Source of the DNA: Onchidella celtica
Taxonomy: Eukaryota; Mollusca; Gastropoda; Systellommatophora; Onchidiidae
Length of the DNA stretch: 64,000 nt
Direction of reading: 5' to 3'
NCBI GenBank assembly: GCA_963931925.1
Contig: OZ007581.1
Location: forward strand, 28,488,624-28,552,623
The notes beneath the pieces were generated by a model. It did no database searches. It was not told the origin of the DNA and was given only the letters and a program-made list of their open reading frames with translations. Shown here one piece after another: positions 29,701 to 44,700 of the stretch. How positions within the stretch are numbered: the stretch's first letter is position 1; each line of letters opens with the position of its first letter. The translations under genes and the position numbers were made by a program.

Positions 29701-32700
29701 CATCGATTTACTTCCTCCCTCTCTCCATCCCTTTCCTTCCCTCACTCCTTCCCTCCCTCCCTCCCTCCCTCACTCATTCACTCACTCACTCACTCACATA
29801 CACACCCACTCACCCCACAGATGTAGGAAACATCTGCGAAGATTCACTACCGGGTGGAACTTTCCTACACAATTTTTGCTTCAAGTTTCACGAGGACAGA
29901 AAGTACTGGGCACAGGCTAAGGTAATTCCATGTCAAATAACAAATCTTACTTTAATTATAATCTAATCTCCTTCTCTCTTTCTCACCGTATGCGTCTGAA
30001 AACGTCACCAGTCTTGAGTGCACTTTCCAGGGGCGATATGCATGGAAAAACGTATAAGTCTATACGCGTTTAGTCCCTAACTGCGGTTAGCTATACGCAC
30101 ACTATGCGCGTTTATCTTTTATCCGCTCTTGGTATGCACGAAGCACTAAACGGGTCCGTTTAACTAACAGCGCATAATCCAATGTTCTATATTTAGATAT
30201 CGGGAAAACGTGTTTGACTCCAATATTTTTGTCAGTGCTCTACAGTGCGTTGTTTAAGCTATAGGCAAGATGGATCTACGAGTAAATCTAAAAGAGACAA
30301 TATCGATGAACTGGCAGTTCAGAAACTGCAGTTGGCAAAAATAAATCAAGCCAAAGTTCAATTAGAGATGGACAAATTGACAGTGGAGAAAGAAAAATTA
30401 CTCCTAGAGGTGGAAATGATAAAGGAACAAAAACTTCTTACAGGGATCAAAAGAACAAATGCCCAGCTTAAACAAGCAGTCTTGTATTTGAAATTGAGAA
30501 AGGGAGAGAGGGAAATGGGCGAGGATTGGGCTCCAGCTAATGTCACCCTTGACATCTTTGAACATCGCACACCCTAGTTTGTATGAATTTCATGTCATCT
30601 TTTGAAAATATGTTTCTAACAATTTGAAATAAAGTTGATAACAATATTGTTGTTTTTTTTATTAATCTTGAGTATTGGGTGTTGATTATTATTATTATTA
30701 TTATTATCATTATTATTATTATTATTATTATTATTATTATTATGTCCAATTGTTTCAGGACCAAATTTATCATCTCCCCCTTTTTTGACACATACACATA
30801 TGTTAGAAAGATAATGACCACCCCTTCCATCAATGATAACTATGCTCTGAAAATCTTATTAGTCTAACACAAAAGCTCGGAGGAAAATATAACATATTTT
30901 TAGAGTTCAAATACTTTACTCCACCACAATGGAAGAAAACCCAAGGTTATGCTAGGTAATATGTATGTGCTCAATCTCTCAGTGATTCAAAAATAGTTTG
31001 CAATCAGTCTACGTCTGGCAGCAGCTCCTGCAGCATTTCGGACCCGTTCAGTCAGTCTGGCACTGACAGCAGCCGATTCTTCCTGATCATAGGTATTATC
31101 GTTGGCCTGTGAGGCAATGTCGAAAGTCATTTCATCATCGCTTTCATCACTGTCGGAGTCCGCAGAATGGACATTTAAGCGTCGACAACGATTATGTAGA
31201 GCAACACAAACCATAATTATCTTGTATGCCTTTGTGGGCTGTACTCGAAGACGTCGCAAACAATGCCACCGTCTTTTCAGAACACCAATTGATCTTTCAA
31301 TTATTGATCTTGCCGAACTGTGCCTAGCATTATACGCCCTCTCATTAGCTGTTGTTGGATTTGCAAGCGGTGTGAACAGCCACTCACGTAACATGTAAGC
31401 ACTGTCGCCAAGAATTATTCCATCAAGTGGCTTCTGAGCACTTTCAAATGCTTCAAAGAGAGGACTTTCATGTAATATTCGTGCATCATGTACACTCCCG
31501 GGCCATTTAGAGATGCAGTGAATGAACACAAGGTCGGCATCGCAGATAAGCTGAAAAAAAATTAAATAGAATAGATTTAGACACCTCTCTCCCCCCTCTC
31601 TCTTTATTCACCCCCCCCCTCTCTCTCTCTCTCTCTCTCTCTCTCTCCCTCCCTCTCCCTCTCTCTCTCTCTCACACACACACGCAGACACACACAAACC
31701 AGACACAGACACACATACAATTTAGGCCTAAACTGAAACTAAAAACGTACCTGTACATTCATTGAATGATAGCCTTTTCTGTTTACAAATTCGTGTTCCT
31801 ATTCATAAGGAGCTTGGATGAGAATCTGTGATCCGTCCACACAGCCCACTACATTGGGAAAAACCGTACTGGGTGAATATTTTCTTCTTTGTCTCATCTG
31901 CTTCCTCCTGATTTGGCCAGCGTATATGGCGATGGGCAGTTAGGAACAAAGCATTGATAACCCGCGTAACAGCCCTACTTACTGTAGCTTGATCTACCCC
32001 AATAAGTTCACCACACACGTCTTGAAAACTTGAAGAAGCAAAATATCGTAAAGTTACCAACACTTGAAGTAGTGGAGTTGGAGAGTTCTTACGATTTGCA
32101 ATAGTTATCACATCCGTGATTTCATTTGCAATATCCAAAATATCCAGTCGCCTAAATCTAAATTTTCTATAAAGTTCAATATCATCAAACACTTCGAAAG
32201 GGTGCGTTTTGTCCCTAAACACTCTGTCTCGTCTTTAAAGTCTTCTCTGTCTCAGTCTAAGAATATGTAAAGTCGCCATCTTCAGCCACTAACTAAACGC
32301 GTATAGCCGACTTAAACGCAGTGAGAACGTCCAATAAAGTTATACGGGTTTTGGAAATGAAGTCATGCTAACCGCTGCTTCGTGCATACGACTTTTTCGG
32401 GAATCCCTCACCTTATACGGAATTTTATACGCGGATAGGAGATAAACGCGTTTAGTCAGCTTCATGCATATCGGCCCTGGGGCGATATGCATGGAAAAAC
32501 GTATAAGTCTATACGCGTTTAGTCCCTAACTGCGGTTAGCTATACGCACACTATGCGCGTTTATCTTTTATCCGCTCTTGGTATGCACGAAGCACTAAAC
32601 GGGTCCGTTTAACTAACAGCGCATAATCCAATGTTCTATATTTAGATATCGGGAAAACGTGTTTGACTCCAATATTTTTGTCAGTGCTCTACAGTGCGTT

Positions 32701-41700: not shown

Positions 41701-44700
41701 CAGTTGGGATGGCGTGGGTTGGACAAAAAGTTGAATGATTTGAACGGCACATCTCTACCCGCCATGTCCATTTGTCAGAGAAGTAACTGTTTATTTGATT
41801 CTGGTTTATTTAATTCACAGACTTGATCTATTTATCTATCTGTCTGTCTCGCTCTATCTAGTTATCTATTTACCTGTCTCTTTCTCTCCCTGTCTCTGAC
41901 TCTCCCTCTCTCTCTCTCTCTCTATCTATCTATCTATCTATCTATCTATCTATCTATCTATCTATCTATCTATCTATCTATCTATCTATCTATCTATCTA
42001 TCTATCTATCTATCTATCTATCTATCTATCTATCTATCTATCTATCTATCTATCTATCTATCTACCTACCTACCTACCTACCTACCTACCAGAGGCACAT
42101 GTCTTTGACTACGTCGTAGTCTTGCCAAACACAGGAGCATGGTCAGGAAAGACAGCCACCCTTGCAGCGGACACGTCCTACCCGGGTATTGTACGCGTCA
42201 TCGTGAACAGGTACACAGATGATGCTGAGGAGAGTACCGTTCATTTGATCACTGTGACCTCACCACTGTACATAGACCTGGATCCGAAACTGGAAATTAA
42301 GACCACAGGTAAGTCTGTACCTTGTCACCTACGCAAAATCTTTCTACAGCTGACCCCCAGCATGTTCGCAGTATTGATTTCTTGCAGGTATGTTTGTGAA
42401 ACTCGCATTTCCATTTACTCATAAGCCTGCTTTACCCCTATTAAATTATGCATCATCTTCCGATGTCTATTTCTAAATTATTATATATTTCAAATCACAC
42501 CCACTGGCTTTTGCTAAGTATGGTTTTATTTGTACATTATGCCATCTTATGCACATACCAAACACAATAGTGAAACATCTATTATTCATGTCCGACGCAA
42601 GGCCATCAAGCGTGAGAAGTTTAATAATCTAAAATCAGTGTTTCTCAACCTGTCTTGTCCCACGCCCCTGATCAAAGCTCCAAACAACAACAACAACAAC
42701 AACAACAACAACAAAAAACGACGCGCTCCCCATTATGAATGCCTCTCATGCCAACGGTACCGGGTTCAAATCCCGGTCGGTGCAGGCATGTTGGAATTTT
42801 GGGATTTTTCTCATATTTTCCTGTCCCTGATCCTATGGTAGCTAAGATCGAGCACCAAGTCTTCTCGGATAAGGACGAAATATTCGGAGGGCCTGTGTGC
42901 ACGTGGCGCACGTTAAAGTTACCTTGGCAGTTGGAAATCGTGAAGAACAGGCCGAACAAAATTCTAAAACAAAACAAAACAAGAACTAATCCCTCTACCA
43001 CAACAAAAATAATAAAAATAAATAAAAACAAGAAAAAGTGAGGCGTAAATACCAAAGTCAGCGAACCTCTTAAAATAAAGATCTAAACACAGTTGGGAAT
43101 GACTATTAAAGTCATGCACCTTTTAAGTTCAATGTTTCAATCCGAGCTAAACAAGGAAACCACCAACATTACATAAACAAACAATAGTTTATCTATACAG
43201 TTAAGATAAAACACAATATGAAATTAGGATTTTCCTGTGCCTCATTCTGATGTTCCACACCCCACCACATTTTTGCCAGCGACACCTTGAGAAACACTGA
43301 GCTAGATAGTAAAAGGCTGTTGCTACTTGTATGTACGTACCTGTCATGATTCGGATATTGTTAAAACTCACGCAGAGAGTGAGTTGTTGTTGTTTACCAG
43401 GGCCATGAGAAATTGGCTGGTGGCCTTGAACGGTCCTCGCCAAATTATAGTTGGTGAGTAAATAAATCTAAAGTTAAACTGCTAGAGTCACGCTTGTCGG
43501 CTTTAATGTTCGTGATTAATAAGTAATGGAGTAGGGGTGAAACAAGGTGGGGACAGTTGACATTGTTAAGTATGACTAGACAAGTTTTGCACGTTAACTG
43601 GCTGGTAGAATAGTGCAGACGTATTACTACAGTTAAAATGGTGGGAGGTTTCGACCTATGAGATAGCTGAACTAATTGGGCCAGCGGACTAGCACGCTGG
43701 GTAGTTGGTTAGTATATAACATCGTGTAACGTTCAGATTTAGTGAATACAGACGAGAGAAGCATCGTTTCGTGAAGTATCTCCGGTTGGCCAGTACCTGA
43801 ACTGTGTGGTCTGAAGACTAAGAAGTCCTTGCTAACGGACTGACTGAGCTCTAGAAAGAAAGGTCTGAGTGGGCTGACCTTTGAAAGCCCACGCTGCGCT
43901 ATTTTGATGTTCGCGCCTCTCAGTAGGCGTGAGCAATGGTAATATATCTTAATTATTCAAGTATAATAGAGATCGGAGATAGAGAGAGAACTACAGCCTC
44001 ATAGGAAGACTAAGGAAACCCCAGCTGGCACTCGACCACGAGTGTCCTGTATGATAGATCTATTGCCATAGTATGATTGGAATAATATAGCACATTGTTG
44101 ATGAATTGAATAGTGATTGTGCATAAAATAGTCTTTTGGCAACTGCTTAAATTACCTACAAGCCGAAGAGTGCTTCTGTAGGCTTTGAACGTACTGGGCC
44201 CTCCTAACATTTAAGCCCATATGATTTATGGAGAGTTTGCCTGGCGACTGGCCAGTGGCGACTCAACTGTCACTTTAAATTGATATCCAGTTTCGTATAA
44301 TATACCTATTTACTATTGATTGCAGTACCTCCATAGTTACATGAATATCATTGGTTAAGTTATTAATTAGAGTTTTTGGTTTGAATATATACCTCTATTG
44401 TCTTTTGTTTTGTTATTAATATTTATGTAAACTATGGCCTGACCGGCCTGACATATATACGCTCTAGTTATTTAGTACTTTTCTTGTGTGGTTGTGTCCG
44501 AGTGTGAGTTAGCTGCCTCTCGTGCAGTCGTAACATCCCCAAGACCCTAACTCTGCTCGTGACATCTGGAGGGGACCCCACTGACATCTGAAGAGGACCC
44601 GTCACCTTCTGACATCTAGAGAACACTACTATCATCGGAAGAGGACCCCGTCAACAGCTGCAGGTCTACCACTCTAAGACTCCACTGTTATTTATGTAAT

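Follow-up and report, generated by a model that had tools for sequence, protein, structure and literature searches.

A FAMeT-like module inside a putatively split C-type lectin-like domain in a clustered family of predicted membrane receptors of Onchidella celtica

A stretch of 64,000 nucleotides from the gastropod Onchidella celtica (assembly GCA_963931925.1, contig OZ007581.1, here C15:28488624-28552623, forward strand; "the window") contains a gene whose second C-type lectin-like domain (CTLD2) is probably a split, nested domain that holds a FAMeT-like module in its interior, and the gene belongs to a clustered family of predicted membrane-anchored receptors. This reading is based on the order of the exons, their phases, the uninterrupted reading frame of the gene model, the recurrence of the same order in paralogues, fewer nonsynonymous than synonymous differences per site (pN below pS) in three of the exons concerned (F1, F3, and C2c), and the position of the CTLD cysteines Cys1 and Cys4 on either side of the insert. 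The nested unit consists of the following parts, with the respective evidence in parentheses.

29821..29921, + strand: CTLD2 exon a (C2a), phase 1-0 (gene model, hmmscan, paralogue mapping)
35593..35683, + strand: CTLD2 exon b (C2b), phase 0-1, carrying Cys1 at residue 185 (gene model, hmmscan, paralogue mapping)
36789..37026, + strand: FAMeT exon F1, phase 1-2 (gene model, paralogue mapping, pN/pS)
39461..39495, + strand: FAMeT exon F2, 5' part ahead of a transposable element (repeat comparison, paralogue exons)
39496..39717, + strand: 222-bp dispersed hairpin element within F2 (repeat comparison; 16-bp target duplications at 39480-39495 and 39718-39733)
39734..39795, + strand: FAMeT exon F2, 3' part past the element, with GTGAGA next to it (similar to the exon ends of the paralogues)
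40872..41034, + strand: FAMeT exon F3, phase 0-1 (gene model, paralogue mapping, pN/pS)
41546..41782, + strand: CTLD2 exon c (C2c), phase 1-1, with a WIGL-like strand, EPN, E, ND, and Cys4 in ICQ (gene model, hmmscan, motif reading)

RESULTS

The two halves of CTLD2. The gene model was assembled by hand from window positions 18600-64000, and the genome searched comprised 1.14 Gb in 43 contigs. As the original prediction had proposed, CTLD2 starts with two exons phased like those of CTLD1 (25784-28284; 1-0/0-1/1-1), and the third CTLD exon with its EPN motif and ICQ end appears only at 41546, where the gene model retains it. The three FAMeT exons in between (1-2, 2-0, and 0-1) are symmetrical overall (1-1), which bears out the claim that the block is frame-neutral, and CTLD1 also has a phase-1 intron at the equivalent place. 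Taken alone, exons a and b of CTLD2 gave 15.7 bits with the Lectin_C profile (PF00059; profile positions 3-30) and exon c 17.7 bits (positions 38-106). Dropping the FAMeT block joins these halves in frame, and the CTLD profile search suggested with the original prediction returned 35.9 bits for the joined domain (cut-off, 22.6 bits). Removal of the block raised the Lectin_C score from 26.6 bits in the window unit and, in the paralogues R2b and R3 described below, from 16.2 to 23.5 and from 17.6 to 21.5 bits, respectively; the joined domains of R2b and of a further paralogue, R2a (25.5 bits), exceed the cut-off. In the 312-amino-acid nested unit of the window from which the element has been removed, hmmscan recognized two Lectin_C stretches (26.6 bits) together with the FAMeT profile Methyltransf_FA (PF12248) at residues 135-233 (23.5 bits).

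The pairing of C2a-C2b with C2c rests on collinearity, on the phases, on the paralogues, and on the lack of detected CTLD exons in the flanking introns. A tblastn comparison of 26 CTLD exon peptides with both strands of the nine block-flanking introns in five genes gave a best E value of 0.031, and no match in the window's own two introns beside the block was better than 0.13; two of the nine introns are short (511 bp for F3-C2c in the window and 492 bp for C2b-F1 in R1). Cys1 in exon b and Cys4 in exon c are invariant in all four aligned nested units and are the predicted partners of a disulfide bond that would span the insert. Cys2 and Cys3 are missing from exon c in five of five genes, and without a Cys2-Cys3 pair CTLD2 is a CTLD by profile rather than a canonical one. 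Exon c of the window gene contains EPN, GED, and LND, and across the five genes the first of these motifs reads EPN in three and QPN in two; these are candidates for the EPN/QPN, E, and ND residues with which a CTLD binds calcium and sugar.

Identity of the FAMeT-like block. The profile search for Methyltransf_FA gave a divided result. The FAMeT block of R3 scored 29.3 bits, over the cut-off of 24.2, and covered profile positions 18-136 of 140; within the nested product of R3 the match (27.3 bits, residues 84-213) follows the first half of Lectin_C (residues 26-58), which is itself below its cut-off. The window copy reached only 14.4 bits with the middle exon as first drawn (39461-39557; the original prediction had given no coordinates for the three FAMeT exons) and 23.2 bits after removal of the element. 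The name FAMeT is therefore used because R3 passes the threshold and the blocks of the paralogues are homologous. A search of the PDB with the window block, part of which is transposon coded, yielded no match at an E value of ≤10.

A transposon in the middle exon. The original prediction described a complete, intact FAMeT domain. The nesting in a CTLD phase-1 intron is upheld by the gene model, the flanking introns, and the order in the paralogues, but "intact" does not hold for the window copy, whose middle exon is interrupted by a transposon that shifts the frame and brings stop codons. The genome search with the product gave matches to F2 residues on many contigs, and ten of the places concerned, chosen because they matched F2 as first drawn, were compared with window positions 39101-39900. 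A dispersed repeat was found in all ten, with an identity of 91 to 100% in its main segment (65 to 164 bp), which suggests a young insertion. The inserted 222 bp form mostly a long hairpin between the 16-bp direct repeats; element and duplication together add 238 bp, which shifts the frame, and read-through meets stop codons. The first version of F2 was discarded since its 3' part matched the dispersed repeats and half of it is transposon, and another F2 candidate in the same window interval was judged to be due to chance.

In R1, R2b, and R3, F2 is element-free, has the phases 2-0, and ends in a conserved Leu-x-Cys, the counterpart of which in the window lies past the element. The conserved cysteine could pair with a cysteine in F1. 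The in-frame donor within the element used by the gene model is the weak GTCAAA, and a second, longer in-frame GT was noted in the element by eye; use of the first would yield a protein without the conserved F2 cysteine. The window copy may thus splice into the element at the weak donor, make a plain CTLD2 by skipping the symmetrical block, or represent a disrupted allele.

Paralogues on the same contig. The paralogues were found by the whole-genome search with the product, in which F2 was also used as first drawn and part of the query is hence transposon coded; three stretches were taken and their exons mapped. The proposed order is complete in R2b (28.67-28.71 Mb, minus strand) and R3 (34.65-34.69 Mb), where C2a-C2b-F1-F2-F3-C2c all follow in sequence, and partial in the two others. 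R1 (from 28.45 Mb) has five of the six exons of the nested unit; its C2a was undetected, and the expected interval of 6.5 kb includes a 5-kb N stretch (28453624-28458623). R2a (28.61-28.67 Mb) has C2a, C2b, F1, and C2c, and its weak candidates for F2 and F3 were judged to be chance matches. More distant members on C15 at about 8.6, 8.75, 12.2, 15.1-15.8, and 16.1-16.2 Mb are represented by scattered, mostly weak exon matches.

Comparison of the window with the paralogues gave a pN of 0.24-0.46 and a pS of 0.64-0.87 for F1, F3, and C2c, at synonymous sites near saturation and with exons whose choice by protein similarity favours low pN; the values fit old duplications under protein constraint. 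The inverted neighbours R2a and R2b (28.61-28.71 Mb) form a mosaic, with identities of 30% in the first CTLD1 exon (C1a), 55% in C2c, and 97% in the last exon (I8), which would fit gene conversion or uneven diversification.

DISCUSSION

Several results weigh against a nested CTLD2. The joined domain of R3 remains marginally below the Lectin_C cut-off (21.5 bits), and in a control for the join score a chimaera of CTLD2 exons a-b with CTLD1 exon c reached 51.4 bits, above the native pair, while CTLD1 exons a-b with CTLD2 exon c also exceeded the cut-off (30.3 bits). The score hence indicates complementary halves, not which half pairs with which, and was discarded as proof of partnership. Even without the element the FAMeT block of the window remains marginally below the PF12248 threshold (23.2-23.5 bits), those of R1 and R2b had no Pfam match at an E value of ≤1, and a genome-wide search with PF12248 gave one place only, on contig C7 (known from its locus translation alone), and none of the genes considered here. 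Searches of a protein database with the nested region (1409 candidates, none at an E value of ≤0.01) and with the FAMeT block (22 candidates, none at ≤10), both partly transposon-coded queries, and with the four-sequence alignment (3425 candidates, none at ≤1) were negative; the collection seems to be poor in animal proteins, so these results say little about other species. Since the search prescribed the phases that paralogue exons had to have, and these exons were chosen by protein similarity, the agreement in phase is a consistency check rather than an independent count and the low pN is partly built in. Furthermore, F2 of R3 requires a GC-AG intron, and R2a has no acceptable F2 or F3 across the 26.7 kb from F1 to C2c, 5 kb of which are N (28618624-28623623); as the other 21.7 kb are readable, R2a may lack a complete block. 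In a more distant relative at C15:8.749 Mb, the 2.4 kb preceding exon c gave no match to a FAMeT exon with an E value better than 0.10, and F2 without the element has a high pN (0.54-0.57; pS, 0.68-1.08), which is little evidence either way.

Two further explanations were considered. The FAMeT block might be an alternatively used cassette, with an ordinary CTLD2 in the main protein and the nested form as an isoform; this possibility, which is compatible with a nested CTLD2, is given less than an even chance. A block with the phases 1-1 can be skipped in frame, the omission of F1-F3 leaves a CTLD2 with the full 35.9 bits, the element in F2 would favour skipping in the window copy, and alternative inclusion of PF12248 copies has been reported for insect famet genes in the accessible part of one study (PMC10015273), but the excess of pS over pN in F1 and F3 across the paralogues points to at least partial use of the block as protein. 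In the other explanation, judged somewhat less likely, the window carries a decaying or null allele in which the transposon breaks the frame and no splice form rescues the receptor. The 238-bp frame shift with its stop codons, the weakness of GTCAAA as a donor, and the similarity of the element to its other copies, as expected of a young insertion, speak for such a loss, whereas the remaining exons are open and spliceable, skipping of the block stays in frame, and the element could be polymorphic.

It is highly improbable that the nested order is an artefact of the gene model in which exons a-b and exon c derive from two CTLDs, with an ordinary FAMeT domain between them and the other CTLD exons unseen. 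The good scores of the chimaeric joins would agree with it, but the nine introns beside the block, two of them only about half a kilobase long, gave no CTLD-exon match better than an E value of 0.03, the exon order recurs in the paralogues, and Cys1 and Cys4 are kept in exons b and c.

If CTLD2 is indeed nested, the three-exon module would occupy the phase-1 intron just ahead of the WIGL-like strand, and one mRNA would span C2b-F1-F2-F3-C2c. The chain would exit the CTLD after its first half, form the FAMeT domain, and re-enter to finish the CTLD. In the CTLD fold, the site between the first half and the WIGL-like strand lies away from the long-loop sugar site, and the predicted product would be one folded CTLD from which the FAMeT domain projects away from the calcium/sugar face. 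Judged from its residues, the simplest reading would be a membrane receptor whose CTLD2 binds glycan in a calcium-dependent manner and bears FAMeT as a side domain. The receptor might serve in pattern recognition or adhesion; CTLD2, which keeps EPN, E, and ND, would bind glycan, and FAMeT would offer a second surface. A bolder picture, which we regard as speculative and doubtful, is that of a clustered, diversifying receptor family in which the FAMeT domain projecting from a glycan-binding CTLD core forms a two-faced module, the 1-1 cassette is spliced in or out, and the transposon gives one copy new coding sequence.

Nested domains are known in general. Accounts of exon shuffling usually have domains set next to one another, and insertions usually fall between domains. 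An oyster protein with a FAMeT domain is said to bind microbes, according to the title of a paper. CTLD1 and CTLD2 of the window gene resemble other C-type lectin-like domain proteins (PF00059) in matching the profile, and CTLD2 shares with them Cys1, Cys4, and the WIGL-like strand and has EPN, E, and ND as candidate calcium and sugar residues; in contrast to them, it is interrupted by a further domain and has neither Cys2 nor Cys3. A CTLD interrupted by FAMeT or by any second domain was not found in the accessible portions of the open-access literature searched. The FAMeT-like block has its counterparts in the Methyltransf_FA proteins (insect and crustacean FAMeT, sea star footprint proteins, abalone UP5, and CPAMD8), with which it shares the domain, as the R3 score shows. 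As far as the available sections of these publications describe it, the domain stands there in tandem with or beside others, whereas here it is located inside another domain. According to the same partial texts, it is part of proteins that are secreted or belong to the matrix, and it may lack enzymatic activity (PMC10015273, PMC9382459, PMC6003135, PMC9358689), an activity of FAMeT on farnesoic acid has never been reliably shown in vitro (PMC10015273), and the domain is carried by adhesive proteins of sea stars and a shell protein of abalone (PMC9382459, PMC6003135) and has been described for CPAMD8 (PMC9358689, PMC9363628). Domains are known to be gained when symmetrical exons insert into introns, and the excerpted account gives symmetrical phases for 28 of 49 middle domain gains by novel exons, a class comprising under 10% of all gains (PMC2926785). 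The 1-1 module in a phase-1 intron resembles such gains, but its recipient intron lies within a domain.

A whole domain in a conserved intron inside a CTLD, common to several duplicates, is a natural test of the tolerance of the CTLD for large insertions and of the ways in which the lectin receptors of invertebrates acquire binding surfaces. The uninterrupted FAMeT exons of paralogues, set against the interrupted copy, offer a natural comparison that bears on the need for the inserted domain.

The complete gene and its surroundings. The gene comprises 18 exons on the plus strand (23686-56718, with the stop codon at 56718) and, in the hand-built model, encodes a single open reading frame (ORF) of 941 amino acids; all 17 introns are GT-AG. 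Its product consists of a hydrophobic N-terminus, CTLD1, the first half of CTLD2, the FAMeT-like block, the third exon of CTLD2, an IgGFc-binding region, and a hydrophobic C-terminal segment. The hydrophobic start and the most hydrophobic stretch of the product (residues 907-927) make a type I membrane protein likely. With hmmscan the whole product gave Lectin_C (61.8 bits, two stretches), Methyltransf_FA (12.1 bits, below the cut-off), and IgGFc_binding (PF17517; 48.4 bits, cut-off 25.6, best stretch at residues 611-798), with the best stretches in this order along the chain. The latter region corresponds to the known IgGFc-binding domain but differs in its connection to CTLDs and a probable transmembrane anchor. 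The exons outside the nested unit are as follows.

23686..23728, + strand: exon SP, start codon and probable signal peptide, phase 0-1 (gene model; hydrophobic N-terminus)
25784..25884, + strand: CTLD1 exon a, phase 1-0 (gene model, hmmscan)
27456..27555, + strand: CTLD1 exon b, phase 0-1 (gene model, hmmscan)
28084..28284, + strand: CTLD1 exon c, phase 1-1 (gene model, hmmscan)
42093..42308, + strand: exon I1, extracellular region after CTLD2 (gene model, paralogue mapping)
48771..48931, + strand: exon I2, extracellular region after CTLD2 (gene model, paralogue mapping)
49566..49643, + strand: exon I3 (gene model, paralogue mapping)
52442..52594, + strand: exon I4, inside the best PF17517 stretch (gene model, hmmscan)
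53893..54211, + strand: exon I5, inside the best PF17517 stretch (gene model, hmmscan)
54923..55110, + strand: exon I6, end of the PF17517 match (gene model, hmmscan)
55396..55440, + strand: exon I7 (gene model)
56425..56718, + strand: exon I8, Ser/Thr-rich stretch, probable transmembrane helix, and stop codon (gene model, hydrophobicity)
3627..5435, + strand: I6-like and I8-like exons of a neighbouring paralogue, probably R1, which starts upstream of the window (product search, exon mapping)

Outside the nested block, the mapping did not find C1c, I4, and I5 in R1, C1c (apart from a partial candidate next to an N stretch), I2, and I3 in R2b, and C1a in R3; the candidates for I3 in R1, R2a, and R3 are poor.

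The introns of the window gene are rich in repeats. Between C2a and C2b, positions 30027-34916 hold two adjoining direct copies of a 2.4-kb element (300-nucleotide blocks 100% alike), with reverse-strand ORFs that, judged by eye, recall a transposase. The intron after I1 contains near-identical direct repeats of about 1.2 kb around some 2.6 kb (43347-48366), by eye similar to a long terminal repeat element, and the longest ORF listed in this region has 143 amino acids. Long tetranucleotide arrays of the ATCT/CTGT type are present in several introns (35860-36730, 39940-40540, 41900-42080, 48960-49540, and 52680-53690). Upstream of the gene, the minus strand has an open frame of 1330 codons (14542-18534), perhaps of a retroelement. 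A perfect 42-bp tandem repeat (63732-64000; 6.4 copies, 100% matches) reaches the end of the window.

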